Assembly: GCA_028687035.1 (NCBI GenBank)
Contig: JAQUAX010000010.1
Location: 62,001 to 126,000 of the forward strand
Source of the DNA: Dechloromonas sp.
Lineage (GTDB): Bacteria; Pseudomonadota; Gammaproteobacteria; Burkholderiales; Rhodocyclaceae
DNA length: 64,000 bases
Reading direction: 5' to 3'
This document shows, piece after piece, positions 36,305-63,271 of this stretch. The notes under the pieces were generated by a model, which made no database searches, was not told the DNA's origin, and worked only from the letters and a program-made list of their open reading frames with translations. The stretch's first letter is position 1; every line of letters begins with the position of its first letter. The position numbers and the translations under genes were made by a program.

Positions 36305-36381
36305 TGGCGGAGTGGACGGGACTCGAACCCGCGACCCCCGGCGTGACAGGCCGGTATTCTAACCGACTGAACTACCACTCC
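36305..36381 (-). tRNA. tRNA-Asp(GTC), copy 2 in transcript order
   Basis: 77 bases with CCA. The acceptor is GGAGTGG / CCACTCC and the anticodon loop CTGTCAC gives GTC. It is identical to the copy at 36658-36734. Confidence 0.96.
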
Positions 36382-36393
36382 GCGCTTTGATCT

Positions 36394-36469
36394 TGGCGTC
36401 CCCACGGGGATTCGAACCCCGGTTACCGCCGTGAAAGGGCGGTGTCCTAGGCCTCTAGACGATGGGGAC
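36394..36469 (-). tRNA. tRNA-Glu(TTC), copy 2 in transcript order
   Basis: 76 bases with CCA. The acceptor is GTCCCCA / TGGGGAC and the anticodon loop CTTTCAC gives TTC. It is identical to the copy at 36761-36836. Confidence 0.96.
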
Positions 36470-36501
36470 CCGGACTTGCAACAACTTGTCGGCTCGGCGC
36501 T

Positions 36502-36577
<76 letters not shown>

Positions 36578-36657
36578 GTGAGAGACAGCCGAACCGTTTT
36601 CGAACTCCCGGCCGGAGCCGGTTTTCCGAAAGAACCGGATTTCTCCGGCGTTTAGAT

Positions 36658-36734
36658 TGGCGGAGTGGACGGGACTCGAACCCGCGACCCCCGGCGTGAC
36701 AGGCCGGTATTCTAACCGACTGAACTACCACTCC
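36658..36734 (-). tRNA. tRNA-Asp(GTC), copy 1
   Basis: 77 bases, anticodon GTC, CCA encoded. It is part of the upstream Ala-Glu-Asp block of the duplicated tRNA operon. Confidence 0.96.
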
Positions 36735-36760
36735 GCGCTAAACCTGTACTGCTAAAACCT

Positions 36761-36836
36761 TGGCGTCCCCACGGGGATTCGAACCCCGGTTACCGCCGTG
36801 AAAGGGCGGTGTCCTAGGCCTCTAGACGATGGGGAC
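36761..36836 (-). tRNA. tRNA-Glu(TTC), copy 1
   Basis: 76 bases, anticodon TTC, CCA encoded. It lies between tRNA-Ala and tRNA-Asp in the first block. Confidence 0.96.
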
Positions 36837-36869
36837 CCGGACAAAATTTACTGCATTCTTTCGAGCTCT

Positions 36870-36945
<76 letters not shown>

Positions 36946-38499: not shown

Positions 38500-38539
38500 G
38501 GGCGGTTAGCTCAGCGGTAGAGCACTGCCTTCACACGGC
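38500..38539 (+). pseudogene. 5' half of host tRNA-Val(CAC), cut by element insertion
   Basis: The acceptor 5' strand GGGCGGT, D arm (TAGCTCAGCGGTAGAG) and anticodon loop TTCACAC are intact, and the first three bases of the 3' anticodon stem (GGC) follow. Similarity to tRNA then ends: the bases GATGCGC cannot complete the stem, T arm or acceptor. The 3' half should lie at the far end of the element, outside the window. Confidence 0.85.
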
Positions 38540-38610: not shown

Positions 38611-38685
38611 GGGCGATTAACTCAGCGGTAGAGTGCCACCTTCACACGGTGGAAGTCACTGGTTCGATCCCAGTATCGCCCACCA
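38611..38685 (+). tRNA. Complete tRNA-Val(CAC), probably element-borne
   Basis: 75 bases with encoded CCA. The acceptor GGGCGAT pairs with ATCGCCC, anticodon stem CCACC / GGTGG, loop TTCACAC (anticodon CAC), T-loop GGTTCGATCC. It shares the anticodon loop and part of the D arm with the cut host gene. Its acceptor, anticodon stem and D-stem differ (TTAACTCAGC against TTAGCTCAGC), so it is not simply the host gene restored by phage sequence. Confidence 0.93.
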
Positions 38686-38891: not shown

Positions 38892-39255
38892 ATCCGTGGG
38901 ACTCCCTTTTTTTTCACGCAAGTCATTGATTTTTGAGAAGAACGCACCCACGGGTTCTTTCGTTTTTCCCACTGGTTAAGGTCTTTTATCCACTGGTTAG
39001 GCGTTTTTCTACACGGATCGGTTTTTCTTCCAACCCCCTTACTTTTCTTCTTAATTCTTGTAAACAAAGAAAAAATTAAGGAAATAGCCGAAGAAAAAAG
39101 GAATCTGAACATCCACGGGTTGAGATTGCTGCCTATTTTTTAATCCACGGGTTTTGCAGTGATCCACGGGTTAATCCGTGGATTCCGTGGATTTATAATT
39201 GCCGTGTATTCAATGACTTGGGGTTGGTTTTGGCCGCATCCACGCATCCACGGGA
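38892..39255 (+). repeat. Array of about ten 11-bp repeats (ATCCACGGGTT) upstream of the integrase
   Basis: The stretch 38686-39217 has no credible gene and is much richer in A+T than its surroundings. It holds forward copies at 38947, 38968 and 38989 (exactly 21 bp apart; two carry T for C inside), then perfect copies at 39111, 39143 and 39162. Inverted copies start at 38892, 39173 and 39183, and partial copies at 39238 and 39246 reach into the integrase frame. A TATAAT box at 39194-39199 sits right after the densest cluster. The array may bind the recombinase, a repressor or a replication initiator. Confidence 0.85.
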
Positions 39256-40288
39256 AAATCTGCTACCCCCCCCTGGGGGAGGCTCCGCCGACGCCCTGAT
39301 TGAGGCGTTTCTTGAGTTCAAACAGGTGTCCGAGGGACGCTCTGCCCGGACCGTCGAGCGCTATGCGCTGGCGCTTCGGCGCCTGGCCGCGTACATGGGC
39401 AACCGGTCGCTGCTGTCGGCGACGGGCGACGACCTTCTCTTCTTCGCCGGGAAATGGCTTTTCGAGCAGGGCGTCCGCGATCCGGTGTCGCGAAAGCCAG
39501 CCGTCGCCGCAGTTCGCGAGTTCTACAAGTGGATCCATCTGCGCGGCTGGCGTGATGATGATCCGGGCCGCCGGGTGCCTCATCCCAAATTCGGCCGGCG
39601 CTTGCCGGCGGTAATGACGCTCGCCCAGGCTGAGGCGCTGATGTTCATGCCGGACTATTCGACCTTCGAAGGTCTGCGCGATGCGACGATGATGGCGATC
39701 CTGCTCGGTACCGGGCTTCGGGTGTCGGCTCTGACCAGCCTCAACGAGTCGAGCATCCTCGATATTGTGGTCGACAAGAAGCCGCGGCTGGCGCTGCGCG
39801 TGCTCACCAAGGGCGGGAAGGAGAGCCAGAAGCCTCTGCCCGAGCAGGCCGCGCTTCTGCTGCGCCTCTACCTCGAGCACCCGACGATGCACGCGGTCGA
39901 CCGGTCGTTGCCAGATGGCGACAAGGTGCTGTTCATCTCAACGCGGAACAGCCATTGCCCGAAGCACGAATGGCACGGCGAGAAGCGGCGCATGAACCGC
40001 CACAGCGTGCACGGCATGATCGAGCGCTACGGCCGCCGCGCTGGCCTGCCGCCGAATGTGACGCACCCCCATGCGATCCGCCATCTGTTCGGCACCGAGT
40101 TGGCCGAGGACGACACGAACCTGAAGGAAATCGCCGAGCACCTGGACCATTCGAAGACCGAGACTTCCGCGGTCTATATCCACCTGGCCATGCGCAAGAA
40201 GACGGCCACAATCGACAAGTCGTCGGCGCTCAACAAGATCAAGACCCCGGTCTCCTCCCTGCTCGAGCAGCTGGGGCGCCGCCCGTAG
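39218..40288 (+). CDS. int: Tyrosine recombinase / phage integrase
   Basis: The 356 residues are XerC/XerD-like. The N-terminal SAM-like core-binding domain spans about 30-110. The catalytic domain has the box I arginine in LGTGLRVSALTSL, a lysine in the TKGGKESQK hairpin, HAIRHLFGTEL (H-x-x-R), LDHSKTET and the tyrosine nucleophile in AVYIHLAM. The longest frame opens at TTG 39218, with no clear SD and with repeat copies overlapping its first codons, so the true start may be a little downstream. It most likely integrates the element at tRNA-Val. Confidence 0.92.
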   Translation: MGLVLAASTHPRENLLPPPGGGSADALIEAFLEFKQVSEGRSARTVERYALALRRLAAYMGNRSLLSATGDDLLFFAGKWLFEQGVRDPVSRKPAVAAVREFYKWIHLRGWRDDDPGRRVPHPKFGRRLPAVMTLAQAEALMFMPDYSTFEGLRDATMMAILLGTGLRVSALTSLNESSILDIVVDKKPRLALRVLTKGGKESQKPLPEQAALLLRLYLEHPTMHAVDRSLPDGDKVLFISTRNSHCPKHEWHGEKRRMNRHSVHGMIERYGRRAGLPPNVTHPHAIRHLFGTELAEDDTNLKEIAEHLDHSKTETSAVYIHLAMRKKTATIDKSSALNKIKTPVSSLLEQLGRRP

Positions 40289-46569: not shown

Positions 46570-46633
46570 GGGCTCCGTGAGTTGAGGAGCCTCCTTTGTA
46601 ACGTCACGACGCTCGGACAAGAGCAAATCGGGT

Positions 46634-46647
46634 CCCCTTTTTTTGCC
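46634..46647 (+). repeat. 14-bp phage repeat CCCCTTTTTTTGCC, copy 2
   Basis: Exact copy of the motif at 41072 and 53206, 103 bases before the capsid fusion gene. It is followed by a GGGAGAAT stretch also seen, as CGGAGAAT, after copy 3. Confidence 0.7.
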
Positions 46648-46749
46648 GTCGCCGACCGGGAGAATGGGCCACGTCGCGGGAGTGCGCCGTTGGTATCTCC
46701 TCCCTCCCTCCCTCGCCCGGCCCTCCCGCGACACCTGAACGAGGGCGCG

Positions 46750-49320
46750 ATGCGACAGAACCGACATTTCCGACTTTCCGAGAAGAACCCCGACGGGCGG
46801 CGCATCCGTTTCCTGTCGAGCCTGCCTTCTTCGCTGTCCGAATCGCTGGGCGGCGATGCGCCGACCAGCTGGGTGACCGTGACCCGGACGGGCAAGTTTT
46901 TCGACCGCCGTTACGGCGAGTTCGAGATCACCCGGCAGATGTTGTCGGAGATGGTCAAGAACTTCGAGGCCGGCACCTACGGACAAGACATCTTCTTCGA
47001 CGTTTCGCACGAGCCCGACAAGGGGGCCGCGGCGAAGCTGCTGAAGCTGACGATCGAGGGCGACCGCCTGCGCGCCCTGGTCGAATGGACGCCCTACGGC
47101 GTCAAGGCGGTGAAGGAGCGTGGCTTCCGCTACCTCTCCGCCGAGTTTCACGAGAACTGGCAGGACAACGAACAACGCGCGACCCATGGATGCGTTCTCC
47201 TCGGGGCTGGCCTGACGACTCGGCCGGTGATCAAGCGCCTCGATCCGATTTCGTTGAGCGAGCAACCCGACGACGGCGCCGCCGCAGCAATCCTGCTGCA
47301 CCCGACGCTGCTTTCCGAACTGATTTCCGAGGTAAGGACCACCATGAAAAAGCATCTTGAACAACTCAAGGCGGCGCTGGCCGCGAAGAAACTCTCCGAG
47401 GCCGCCATTGCTTCGGTGCTCAAGGCCGCCGAGCAGGCGATGACCGGCATGACCGACGAGGCGCAGATGAAGGCGCTGTGCGACGCGCTGGAGGATGGCG
47501 CGGTGAAGCTGGCCGAGTCCGGCCAGACGCCGGGCAACATCAGCATTTCGCTGGGCATGAGCGATGCCGCCGTGGCCGATCTGGTCGCCAAGAAGCTGGC
47601 CGATGCCCAGTCCGACGCCAAGAAGCTCGCCGAAACCGCCGACTCGCGCCGCAAGCTGCTGGCCGATACGGTCGGCGAGAAGGTCAAGGATGCCGAGATC
47701 GTCGAACAGGTCTGCAAGCCGTTCGCCGCGCTGGTCGCCACGCTGTCCGAAGATGCCGTGAAGGCCGTCGCCGTCGAGGTGATCGCCCTGGCCGAGCCGC
47801 TGGCCGCCCAGAAGCAGCTGGCCGCGATGGGCTTCGGCGGTTTCCGCGGCAATGCCATCATCAGCGTGGATTCGTCGAACCAGGTCAAGGCGCTGCAGGA
47901 AGCGATCGACAAGCGACTGGGCATTGCCGGCATGCCGGCCCGCCGCCGCTTCGAGCTTTCCGGCGGCATCGAGGTCGCCGAAGGCAAGGCGCTGGCCGAG
48001 AAGGTGCTCGCCGAATTCGACCGCCGCAACGGCGCCCAGCTGCACGCCGAGCACAAGATGCTGGCCGGCGGCGACGGCATCATGTCGGATGTCGCCGTGC
48101 CGACGATTTTCGAGCGCACCGTGATCCGCGAAGTGCTGTACCAGATGGTCGGCATGTCGCTGGTGGACGTCGGCACCGATGCCTTCGCGCAGTCGGTCTC
48201 GATCCCCTACAGCTATCGCGACACGACCGCCGCCGGCAAGAACGACACCCGCACCTATGAAGGCCAGGGGGTGAAGCGCGCCGGCATCAAGCAAGCGATG
48301 GACATCGCTTACCCGATCCCGCAGAAGCTGGCCTTCGAGGTTTCGGACGAACTGCGCTACCTGATGGGCAACGGCCAGCTGAATTTCGACATCCTCGGCG
48401 AGAACGCCCGCAACGCGATCCGGATCATCGGCGAGGACACCGAGCGCCTGATCTGGAACGAGCAGGTGAACGCGGCCGACGAGTACGGCGCCGTGGCGGT
48501 GGCCAACGAAGGCCTGACCGGCGTCAACGGGGCGAACAAGATTTTCGTGCTGGCCAAGTTCCCGGTGGTCAAGCCGCGCAAGATCTTCGACCTGCAGGGC
48601 AACCAGGTCGGCAACACGATCAACCCGGTCTCCTGCGTCTTCGACGGCGCCGCCTGCCTCGAATACGACGGCACCGGCACCCAGGCCAACGGCACCTACT
48701 TCGTGCTGGACTACCAGCTGGGCGAAGTGCGCTTCGTCAATCAGGCAGGCGTCCTGCAGACCCCGGCCAACGCCAAGGTCATCACCCTGTCGTACAGCTA
48801 CGCCAGCAACGCGGCGACGTGGGATACCGACCTCGGCGGCCTGAAGACCAAGGAGCGCTACGACGACCTGCTGTACCGCATCGGCCTGCGCAAGGCGCTG
48901 CTCGAAGACCAGCGCAGCTACCCGGCATCCCAGATGCTGATGTCGGGCACGCTGATGACCGCCATCGAGCAGGCCGAGAGCTTCGGCGCCAACTTCGCCC
49001 GGCCCGGCACGACGCTGGACCAGAACGGCAACCTGGGCGCGGTCAAGGGCATCCCCGGCTTCAAGAGCTACGCGCCGGGCCTGCAGCTCGGCGATAACCG
49101 GATCGTGATCGGCCAGCGCGGCCTGACCCGCTTCCGGATGCTGAAGCCGTGGGCGCTCGGCCAGCTGCAGGACCAGAAGGACTCCAACGGCCGCTTCACC
49201 GGCAAGAAGGAAGCCTACGGTGACCAGTTCATCGCGCTGCACACCCCGTCCCCGCTCAAGGCGGGCCTCACGTCGATCGTGCTGTACAGCGCGACGGGCC
49301 GGGTGAATCGCGCGTCCTAA
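46750..49320 (+). CDS. Fused phage head protease, scaffold and major capsid protein
   Basis: The frame encodes 856 residues. Residues 1 to about 195 resemble Mu I-type prohead proteases (FFDVSHEPDKGAAAKLLK, GFRYLSAEFHENWQD). Residues about 199-400 are helical and charged like a scaffold (MKKHLEQLKAALAAKK, repeated Ala/Lys/Glu). Residues about 430-856 are the capsid-like part, with VAVPTIFERTVIREVLYQMV and LEDQRSYPASQMLMSG. An internal ATG at 47344 follows GAGGTAAGGACCACC, so a shorter scaffold-capsid product may also be made. The ATG at 46750 (GAGGGCGCG before it) is preferred over an open extension to 46582 that has odd composition. Confidence 0.82.
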   Translation: MRQNRHFRLSEKNPDGRRIRFLSSLPSSLSESLGGDAPTSWVTVTRTGKFFDRRYGEFEITRQMLSEMVKNFEAGTYGQDIFFDVSHEPDKGAAAKLLKLTIEGDRLRALVEWTPYGVKAVKERGFRYLSAEFHENWQDNEQRATHGCVLLGAGLTTRPVIKRLDPISLSEQPDDGAAAAILLHPTLLSELISEVRTTMKKHLEQLKAALAAKKLSEAAIASVLKAAEQAMTGMTDEAQMKALCDALEDGAVKLAESGQTPGNISISLGMSDAAVADLVAKKLADAQSDAKKLAETADSRRKLLADTVGEKVKDAEIVEQVCKPFAALVATLSEDAVKAVAVEVIALAEPLAAQKQLAAMGFGGFRGNAIISVDSSNQVKALQEAIDKRLGIAGMPARRRFELSGGIEVAEGKALAEKVLAEFDRRNGAQLHAEHKMLAGGDGIMSDVAVPTIFERTVIREVLYQMVGMSLVDVGTDAFAQSVSIPYSYRDTTAAGKNDTRTYEGQGVKRAGIKQAMDIAYPIPQKLAFEVSDELRYLMGNGQLNFDILGENARNAIRIIGEDTERLIWNEQVNAADEYGAVAVANEGLTGVNGANKIFVLAKFPVVKPRKIFDLQGNQVGNTINPVSCVFDGAACLEYDGTGTQANGTYFVLDYQLGEVRFVNQAGVLQTPANAKVITLSYSYASNAATWDTDLGGLKTKERYDDLLYRIGLRKALLEDQRSYPASQMLMSGTLMTAIEQAESFGANFARPGTTLDQNGNLGAVKGIPGFKSYAPGLQLGDNRIVIGQRGLTRFRMLKPWALGQLQDQKDSNGRFTGKKEAYGDQFIALHTPSPLKAGLTSIVLYSATGRVNRAS

Positions 49321-60280: not shown

Positions 60281-61621
60281 ATGAGCGAACTTCGCACCCG
60301 CAGCATCGTCGGCAAGGACGGTGGCCCCGTCAGCTTCCCGAACGGCATCGTCATCGGTAGTGCCGGTACCTACGGCAACATCAACCACATCGGCACGCCC
60401 GGCCAGGCCGGCTTCGGCGTCGGCATCTGCCCCGGCCCGCTGCCGGACGGCATGCTGCCGCTGCCCGGCTACGCCGACCCGCTGGCCGAGAATTACGGCA
60501 ACTACAAGTACACGGACGGTAGCATCATGGTCTGGGTGCCGGCCTACTGGTACAAATGGGGCACGGGCGCCAACGGCCTGGCGGTCAATGAAGTGGATAT
60601 CAAGCCCTTCGCCGCCTACGCCAACCCGGCCGCCGCCACCGCCGCCGGCTACGCGCTGCACCGGGCCTTCTACGACGGAGGCGCGGTGAAGCAGGGCGTG
60701 TTCGTCGACAAGTACCAGTGCAGCAACAACGGCGGGATCGCCTCGTCGATCAAGCACGGCCTGCCGCTGACCTCGCATGCCACGCACAACCCGTTCGCCG
60801 GGCTGGCCGGCGCGCCGTCCAACACCTACGGCGGCGCGATCGCCGCGGCCAAGACGCGCGGCGCCAGCTTCTTCTGCAACTCGCGCTTCGTCTTCGCGGC
60901 CTTGGCCATGCTGTCCTATGCCCATGGCCGCGCCAGCGCAAGCACGACCTACAACGCCTGGTACGACGCCGCTGGAACGAAAAATTTCCCGAAGGGGAAC
61001 AACAACAACGCGCTCGGCGACGCCAGCGACGGCGCGATCCTCTACGTGTCGGACGGCTATCCGAACTGCGGCAAGACCGGCAGCGCCAACCTGTTCGCGC
61101 GGACCACGCACAACGGCCAGAACTGCGGCATCGCCGACCTCAACGGCAACCTGTTCGAGGTGACGCCGGGCCTGACTTCGGACGGCACGAACCTGTACGT
61201 CCTGAAGACCAGTGTCTCGATGAAGAACGTCACCGGCGGCAACACGCTGGCGACCGACCTCTGGGGCGCGACCGGCATCGCCGCGCAGTACGACGACCTG
61301 GGCATCGCCTACGAGGCATGGCGTGAAACCGGCGCTGACCGGACGACCTACTACGGCAACGCCAGCCAGGTGTTTTCGCACGCAACGAGCGGCAATGCGT
61401 GGGCCTGGGCTGGTGCAGGCGGAATGCTGGCCGGCGGCGATGGCGGCACCAATGCCTTCGGTAACGACCACTTCGCCGATTACAAGCCGAACGAGTCGTG
61501 TCCGGTCTCCGGCGGCACCTGGGGCAACGGTTCGCTCGCCGGCGTCTGGGCGTTGACCCTCACCACCGGCCGCGCGAACTCGAGCAGCAGCGTGGGCTTC
61601 CGCTCCGCCTTGTATTTGTAA
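60281..61621 (+). CDS. DGR target protein, putative receptor-binding tail protein with variable C-type lectin-fold C-terminus
   Basis: 446 residues. MSELRTRSIVGKDGGPVSFP opens a spike-like N-terminal region. From about residue 80 (SIMVWVPAYWYKWG) to the end the sequence has the layout of the FGE-sulfatase/C-type lectin fold used by DGR variable proteins, with GNLFEVTPGLTSDG and the closing SVGFRSALYL. Residues 407-443 are encoded by VR, and the positions that differ from TR are mostly Asn codons in TR. AAGGAGCC precedes the ATG. It probably contacts the host surface, so VR changes would alter tropism; this function is inference from known DGR phages. Confidence 0.9.
   Translation: MSELRTRSIVGKDGGPVSFPNGIVIGSAGTYGNINHIGTPGQAGFGVGICPGPLPDGMLPLPGYADPLAENYGNYKYTDGSIMVWVPAYWYKWGTGANGLAVNEVDIKPFAAYANPAAATAAGYALHRAFYDGGAVKQGVFVDKYQCSNNGGIASSIKHGLPLTSHATHNPFAGLAGAPSNTYGGAIAAAKTRGASFFCNSRFVFAALAMLSYAHGRASASTTYNAWYDAAGTKNFPKGNNNNALGDASDGAILYVSDGYPNCGKTGSANLFARTTHNGQNCGIADLNGNLFEVTPGLTSDGTNLYVLKTSVSMKNVTGGNTLATDLWGATGIAAQYDDLGIAYEAWRETGADRTTYYGNASQVFSHATSGNAWAWAGAGGMLAGGDGGTNAFGNDHFADYKPNESCPVSGGTWGNGSLAGVWALTLTTGRANSSSSVGFRSALYL
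61498..61610 (+). repeat. DGR variable repeat (VR)
   Basis: 113 bp aligned without gaps to TR (offset 565). There are 15 mismatches. 14 are at TR adenines: 7 A to G, 6 A to C, 1 A to T. The exception is T in TR at 62134 against G in VR at 61569. 14 of the 25 TR adenines are changed. The matching stretch ends 9 bases before the target stop codon. Confidence 0.97.
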
Positions 61622-61630
61622 CTTTGGAGG

Positions 61631-61650
61631 CCGGGCGCGGGAGCGCCTGG
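61631..61650 (+). promoter_or_regulatory. DGR hairpin/cruciform with GGGA tetraloop
   Basis: Stem CCGGGCGC / GCGCCTGG (8 bp, one G-T) closes a GGGA loop, fitting the GRNA tetraloop pattern of the DGR hairpin needed for retrohoming in the Bordetella phage. It starts 21 bases after VR. The SD GGAGG (61626-61630) lies just before it and the avd ATG 7 bases after it. Confidence 0.85.
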
Positions 61651-61657
61651 CATTGAA

Positions 61658-62059
61658 ATGAACCTGCACGCCGAAGCCAGCCTGAACCGGAAATTTGTCG
61701 AAATGGCCCAGTTGATGAACGTCTATCTGAACCACTTTCCGCGACACGAGAAGTACGCGCTGTCGCAACAGATCCGGACGGCTGCCTACGACGTGTATTC
61801 GCTCATCGTGGAGGCGCAGAAGCGCTACCACAAGAAAACCACGCTGACCCAGCTGGATATCCGCCATGAACAGCTTCGCATGCTGATCAACCTGGCTTTC
61901 GAACTCGGCTATTTCGCCTTCAAGGACGGAACGCCCAGCGAAGAAAAGCCGGCGAAGCTGGCGCGACATCGTCACCTGGCCATAAGCCGGCTCGTCGATG
62001 AGCTAGGGCGCATGATCGGCGGCTGGCTGGTTTCAGAGCGGCAACGGGAGGCGTCTTAA
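61658..62059 (+). CDS. avd: DGR accessory variability determinant (Avd-like)
   Basis: 133 residues, basic and almost wholly helical (FVEMAQLMNVYLNHFPRHEK, QIRTAAYDVYSLIVEAQKRY, RHRHLAISRLVDELGRMIG), the four-helix-bundle layout of Avd and the related S23 intervening-sequence proteins. Avd pentamers bind the RT and template RNA and are needed for cDNA synthesis. The gene lies between VR and TR as in canonical DGRs. Confidence 0.9.
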   Translation: MNLHAEASLNRKFVEMAQLMNVYLNHFPRHEKYALSQQIRTAAYDVYSLIVEAQKRYHKKTTLTQLDIRHEQLRMLINLAFELGYFAFKDGTPSEEKPAKLARHRHLAISRLVDELGRMIGGWLVSERQREAS

Positions 62060-62062
62060 CAT

Positions 62063-62175
62063 GTGTCCGATCTCCGGCGGCAACTGGAACAACAGTTCGA
62101 ACGCCGGCGTCTGGGCGTTGAACCTCAACAACGTCCGCGCGAACTCGAACAACAACGTGGGCTTCCGCTCCGACT
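62063..62175 (+). ncRNA. DGR template repeat (TR) RNA
   Basis: 113 bp starting 3 bases after the avd stop. In the VR frame it carries 11 AAC codons, the usual adenine-rich design that lets mutation reach many residues but no stop codon. The noncoding spacer 62176-62317 up to the RT start is presumably part of the same RNA. The open frame across TR is not taken as a gene. Confidence 0.95.
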
Positions 62176-62317
62176 CTGCTTCGCCTCGCACCCGGCAACG
62201 GGATGGTGGAACAAAGGGAGACGCTTTCCGGCGCGCGGCCGTTTCGGCGACCGCGGCGAAATCGGTGTGCTGCCGTTTTTCTGGTAGGGGCCGCAGGGCT
62301 CTCGAAGGTCGGACGAC

Positions 62318-63271
62318 ATGAAGCGCATCGGTCATCTGTACGAGCAGGCCTTTACGCCCGAGGCGCTGCTCACCGCTTTTTTCGACGCGTCGCGCCATAA
62401 GCGCATGACGCGCGCCTGCTTTCAGTTCGAGCGGCGGCTGGCCTACCACCTGGATCAGCTGCACGCCGAACTGCAAGACGGCAGCTACTGCCCGCGCCCG
62501 TATTTCAGCTTCATGGTCTACGAGCCGAAGCCGCGCCTGATCTACGCGCCGGCCTTCCGCGACCTGGTGGTGCAGCACGCGATCTACCGGTTGATCTATC
62601 CGCTTTTCAACCGGGGATTCATCGACCAGTCCTTCGCCTGCCGCAAGGGCAAGGGGACGCACGCGGCGGCCGATTACGCGCAGGCCGCACTGCAAAACTC
62701 GCCGGCCGACAGCTACACGCTGAAGCTGGATATCCGTCGCTTTTTCTACCGGATCGACCGCGCCACCCTGCGCCGGCAGATCGAGCGCAAGGTGAAGGAT
62801 CGCCGCTTCGTGGATCTGATGATGGCTTTCGCCGACCACGGCGAGCCGCGCGGCATCCCGATCGGCAACCTGCTGAGCCAGTTGTACGCGCTGATCTACC
62901 TCGACCCGCTCGACCATTTCATCAAGCGCGAACTGGGCGTCCGGCTGTACTGCCGCTATGTCGACGATTTCGTGCTGTTCGGCCTGACCCGCCGCCAGGC
63001 GGTCGAATACCGGTCGCGGATCGTCGCCTTTCTGGCCGAACGCATTGGGCTTGAACTCTCGCGCTCAACCATTGCACCGACCCGGCGCGGCCTCAATTTC
63101 GTGGGCTACCGCACCTGGGCCAGCCGCCGTTTCGTGCGCAAGCACAGCCTGTTCACCTTCCGCCGGTCGGTGCGCCGCGGCGACGCGGCCAGCATTGCCG
63201 CCTGCCTCGGCCACGCCCGGCGGACCCACTCTCTTGCCGCGATGCGGCGCTACCTGGAGCAATCGCAATGA
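62318..63271 (+). CDS. DGR reverse transcriptase
   Basis: 317 residues. The catalytic motif is CRYVDDFVLFG. The DGR-type motif GIPIGNLLSQLYALIYL replaces the retroviral QG box, and SYTLKLDIRRFFYRID gives the first catalytic Asp. Upstream motifs include IDQSFACRKGKGTHAA. There is no maturase or endonuclease domain, as in other DGR RTs. It copies TR RNA to cDNA with errors at adenines. The 3' end overlaps the next gene by ATGA. Confidence 0.96.
   Translation: MKRIGHLYEQAFTPEALLTAFFDASRHKRMTRACFQFERRLAYHLDQLHAELQDGSYCPRPYFSFMVYEPKPRLIYAPAFRDLVVQHAIYRLIYPLFNRGFIDQSFACRKGKGTHAAADYAQAALQNSPADSYTLKLDIRRFFYRIDRATLRRQIERKVKDRRFVDLMMAFADHGEPRGIPIGNLLSQLYALIYLDPLDHFIKRELGVRLYCRYVDDFVLFGLTRRQAVEYRSRIVAFLAERIGLELSRSTIAPTRRGLNFVGYRTWASRRFVRKHSLFTFRRSVRRGDAASIAACLGHARRTHSLAAMRRYLEQSQ

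Follow-up and report, generated by a model that had tools for sequence, protein, structure and literature searches.

What does a nearly adenine-restricted set of substitutions between two neighbouring 113-bp repeats record, and why does one of those substitutions fall on a thymine? The question is raised by a 64,000-nucleotide stretch of Dechloromonas sp. (assembly GCA_028687035.1, contig JAQUAX010000010.1, positions 62,001 to 126,000; hereafter the window), near whose end lies a diversity-generating retroelement (DGR) of the type familiar from Bordetella phage BPP-1. Our analyses indicate with high confidence that this is a complete BPP-1-type DGR of a prophage integrated at tRNA-Val, whose reverse transcriptase (RT), together with the accessory variability determinant (Avd), likely mutates the variable repeat (VR) of a predicted tail protein from a template repeat (TR), and whose T(62134)-to-G(61569) change is best explained by a weaker misreading of template U. 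The sole unusual point of the element is that its RT lineage probably misreads some T (U) bases too.

All parts of the element lie on the forward strand. The target gene (60281..61621) encodes a predicted phage tail protein of 446 aa with the VR (61498..61610) at its C-terminal end, and is followed by a hairpin/cruciform (61630..61651), Avd (61658..62059, 133 aa), the TR (62063..62175) and the RT (62318..63271, 317 aa). The three open reading frames are all open and share one direction, and the gene order is that of BPP-1; the first-pass annotation, which had described these six parts as intact and in canonical order, is borne out, coordinates included. VR and TR align without gaps at an offset of 565, the repeat match being first 110 bp long and then extended to 113 bp, with 15 mismatches, again as had been reported. 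Fourteen of these fall on TR adenines, of which the TR has 25 among its 113 bases (hypergeometric P = 2.2e-10). Of 109 unique pairs found at loci of the window element's RT family, however, 103 have a TR ending in GACT and a VR ending in GCCT, so the mismatch at 61608 (TR 62173) is a fixed mark of the repeat 3′ end and no product of mutagenesis. The count of 14 was correct, and 13 of 14 mutagenic mismatches at A is the better figure (P = 1.2e-9). This A/C difference probably separates IMH from IMH*, as the two sites are called in DGRs. The same usage is found in PMC3240598 and PMC12875486. The remaining mismatch, at 61569, changes residue 430 from Val to Gly; it is the single non-A mismatch, as counted previously, and fits a recurrent T>G pattern.

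The protein families and the hairpin agree with this assignment. Avd matches PF22296 bAvd (67.4 bits, cut-off 40) and phrog_3206 'Avd protein of DGR' (E 9e-24), and scores 75.6 bits with NCBIfam NF033474, under its cut-off of 80. The RT matches PF00078 (E 9.7e-16) and phrog_1423 (E 1.4e-101), and aligns over its full length with BPP-1 brt at 40% identity. Its closest solved structure is 8ub7 (E 1.3e-57), which we take to be the BPP-1 enzyme. The motifs IGNLLSQ and YVDD are intact, SQ and YxDD being the marks of DGR RTs in the portion of PMC3521204 available to us. A group II intron RT or an antiviral RT (DRT, AbiA) was considered and rejected, the NCBIfam scores being 110 of 300 for group_II_RT_mat, 55 of 200 for Drt3a and lower for others. 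The hairpin, with a GC-rich 9-bp stem and a GGGA loop, starts 19 nt past the VR (single-strand DNA folding z = -3.9) and falls within the consensus given in the accessible text of PMC3240598, namely a GRNA loop, a stem of 7-10 bp and a placement 4-34 bp past the VR. Among relatives, the best hairpin had a GRNA loop in 67 of the 147 regions that follow the VR, versus 8 of 147 past the TR.

The VR lies inside the target frame, and the predicted fold of the target, modelled with a mean pLDDT of 92.3, is the C-type lectin fold of DGR variable proteins, as had been anticipated from the sequence. Among DGR variable proteins of solved structure, the model closely matches TaqVP, and less closely Mtd and TvpA. 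An earlier model had a poor mean pLDDT of 56 because its input alignment was too uniform, and we place no main reliance on the TaqVP match that Foldseek gave for it. The target family is large, with 3300 relatives among 7995 scored candidates. Taken together, Avd and RT families, TR/VR pattern, hairpin, gene order and target fold support the annotation of a complete DGR.

Relatives were drawn from 59 loci found in genome scans and from further loci on viral contigs. A qualifying pair had at least 80 nt and at least 7 mismatches, at least 70% of them at one base. For the counts, 10 nt were cut off both ends, repeated pairs were merged beforehand (one contig may recur under several locus ids, such as L126, L154, L251 and similar), and L001 and L142-L145 were left out. 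A-biased pairs with the same arrangement were present in 219 of the 291 sequences scanned, the other 72 having no qualifying pair. The 178 unique TR/VR pairs carry 2432 mismatches at A and 114 at other bases; among the latter T>G leads with 57, followed by C>T (15) and T>C (11), with G>T at 4 and the others at 7 or fewer each. The T>G to G>T ratio is 32:1 in the window RT family, 23:1 in the BPP-1 family and 2:2 in a mixed third group.

The strongest competitor is an ordinary point mutation of VR or TR at 61569, involving no RT error; we consider it a possible but less probable explanation. Several observations weigh on its side and against U misreading: the event is alone in the window, related TRs often differ from each other by G/T, and this phage has no sibling TR by which the change could be polarised. 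The direction of change, on the other hand, is strongly asymmetric (57 against 4), and it stays so at 43:4 after TR clusters are collapsed, with at least one T>G in 45 of the 178 pairs. The T>G rate is moreover equal at synonymous and other sites (11/652 versus 42/2550, P = 1.0). Two further sources were examined and rejected. Alignment edge effects fail since the excess survives end trimming from 5 to 20 nt (65:3 to 45:3), and mutation of the TR fails as no case among the 57 events resembles a TR change: 25 events have close sibling pairs in which T is kept in both TR and VR, 27 are without a sibling and 5 have siblings that leave the matter unsettled.

In the first set, a 3′ G suppresses T>G (TG 2/1155) and a 3′ A raises it (TA 13/206), with TC at 22/998 and TT at 13/714. 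This effect was only partly repeated in a later set (TA 2/261, TC 2/586, TT 7/421, TG 0/631), and no link was seen between T>G and the load of A mutations. The later set consists of two clades fetched afterwards and treated by the same pair rules, which gave a pair at 125 of 160 loci. Their T>G to G>T ratios were 3:1 in a gut set (58 pairs, not significant) and 8:1 in the other (62 pairs), or 11:2 combined (P 0.02). Per T, the rate was 11/1960, compared with 55/3008 in the first two families (P 1e-4). These counts support the U leak and show it to be uneven between clades.

As to its cause, A>G, which corresponds to C opposite A, is the commonest A error in the surveyed pairs, and the available part of a study of an E. 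coli reconstitution likewise gives C opposite A as the commonest A error, at 59.3% (PMC12875486). This agreement makes dC opposite U the simplest cause of T>G and, judging from these substitution patterns, a likely one. In the mechanism that we propose, RT with Avd would reverse-transcribe the TR RNA, making errors at its adenines, and the error-bearing cDNA would replace the VR of the predicted tail protein; as in known DGRs, this mutagenic retrohoming may be guided by the VR 3′ end and the hairpin, and its outcome may be an altered binding of host surface structures, from which the first-pass annotation had supposed a probable capacity to change host range. At 62134, template U would have been misread and dC placed into the cDNA, an error that appears to recur in the RT family of the window and in that of BPP-1. 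A broader proposal, to which we give even chances, is that BPP-1-type RTs have a second mutable base, about thirtyfold weaker, namely template U read like G (dC inserted), with a purine-free 3′ neighbour other than G being favoured; such a leak would add non-A diversity to proteobacterial phage tail proteins, with a strength that varies between DGR clades.

Whether the element still works is a separate matter. It could have been active once and be silent here, the VR retaining old retrohoming marks after RT, Avd or expression failed, and the case for this is a single genome, with no other VR in it. In this 3.3-Mb genome, a second VR or TR was not found, the TR query matching only itself and one VR. 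We regard silence as improbable, given that the RT, Avd and target frames are open, the motifs are intact, and a single mutagenic mismatch outside A implies a VR without drift since its last copying. Relatives that share identical TR and RT carry VRs whose differences fall on TR adenines, with hardly any elsewhere. In L086-L093, which have an identical TR, pairwise comparison of six VRs gives differences at 208 of 315 A positions and at 5 of 1020 other positions, and downstream there are 0 differences in 16050 pairwise positions; L076-L081 and L062-L064 show similar VR differences. Other identical-TR groups are less clean, some having diverged downstream sequence and L082/L083 lacking any A difference. 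This diversity fits RT-dependent TR-to-VR transfer (retrohoming), as far as sequence comparison can tell. The first-pass annotation had called the element apparently active and expected VR changes to stay at TR-adenine positions; both are shown by relatives (L086-L093 and others), not by the window copy or its source strain. In Psychrobacter sp. 72-O-c, three loci with RT relatives occur on two contigs (L014, L019, L020), and L014 and L019 have the same TR and VR.

Selection offers another reading of the T>G change, in which the altered residue (Gly 430 here) would suit a receptor surface. The window change is non-synonymous, and S>A (TCC to GCC) was seen 10 times. Yet the synonymous rate given above equals that at other sites, and without the recurrent ACTCC context the excess over G>T persists at 48:3, which makes this reading very unlikely. 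Lastly, that the repeat pair arose by chance or by an ordinary gene duplication and has no DGR function is next to impossible, in view of a strand-specific A pattern (P 2e-10) adjoining Avd and RT and of the 219 of 291 sequences in which A-biased pairs are arranged alike.

The element resides in a prophage, as had been supposed, which is integrated at tRNA-Val. The left attachment (att) repeat, tRNA-Val(CAC), lies at 38611..38685 on the forward strand and has an identical copy at C10:144087-144161, outside the window; the flanking repeats share about 78 identical bases and stand 43.5 kb from each other. Between them lie head, tail, tape measure, holin and endolysin genes, with an integrase before the right tRNA-Val copy. 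A phage integrase domain occurs in three genes in or at the prophage (window 39218-40288; L142 9576-10556; L142 16934-17905), of which only the last adjoins the right tRNA-Val. In genus relatives, examined for an empty site that joins both flanks, gltX adjoins tRNA-Val; the left flank with tRNA-Val was recovered, and the right-flank match reached hardly beyond the tRNA itself. Between gltX and the intact tRNA-Val, a degenerate 5′ half of a second tRNA-Val (38500-38538, 85% to bases 1-39) sits where genus relatives have tRNA-Val, and was perhaps left behind by an earlier insertion. Elsewhere in the window, a tRNA Asp-Glu-Ala cluster occurs in two tandem copies (36305-36945), and a 912-aa frame (46582-49320), the front of which matches a head maturation protease, is far longer than that model and perhaps encodes a protease fused to the capsid protein. 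The description of the prophage as betaproteobacterial is consistent with the RT and target relatives, and no more than consistent: several of the nearest RT relatives are metagenome-assembled genomes (MAGs) of Rhodocyclales, Nitrosomonadales or Comamonadaceae, and a target relative at 66% comes from a Rhodocyclaceae bacterium. A whole-family RT search gave some match in 73 of 199 genomes, with two close ones among the matches listed, at 73% and 59% (L296, L297).

The element itself is a further phage DGR in good preservation, and its target belongs to a large family. More weight attaches to the T>G exception. At least 75% of DGR mismatches are at A nearly everywhere, according to the accessible text of PMC8144416. 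In the part of PMC3521204 open to us, DiGReF requires exact matches at non-A bases, and its survey found neither C- nor G-specific elements, the T hits all coming from inverted elements. Programs and surveys of this kind would, on that description, discard T>G-bearing pairs. No published report of a T>G leak in DGRs was found in the literature searched, subscription papers lying outside its reach. A base-specific leak with a neighbour effect, if true, would be a constraint on models of how these RTs misread adenine.

TaqVP, the Thermus aquaticus DGR variable protein (PDB 5VF4), has 16-18% identity to the window target (Foldseek) and is, by its entry title, not a phage gene of that target's kind. 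The Rhodocyclales/Rhodocyclaceae and other proteobacterial MAG loci (L004, L016, IMG/VR relatives), members by sequence only, have RTs at 72-73%, full-length target relatives and the same VR/TR placement, and none has a TR identical to that of the window. Among 50,697 phage records the nearest RT is that of Pseudomonas phage Bise (OR683401.1, 61.6%), which has the same order of target, four-helix-bundle (Avd-like) gene, TR and RT and a 116-bp repeat pair with 9 of 9 mismatches at TR A (counted by eye), whereas its target is barely related (phmmer 29.5 bits). The DGR of BPP-1 (NC_005357.1) differs in its longer repeats (134 bp versus 113 bp), in an Avd alignable by BLASTP over 29 residues only, and in its tRNA, the record noting tRNA-His where the window prophage uses tRNA-Val; the window target is nearer TaqVP than Mtd in sequence and fold. 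The order of the parts is the same in both elements.
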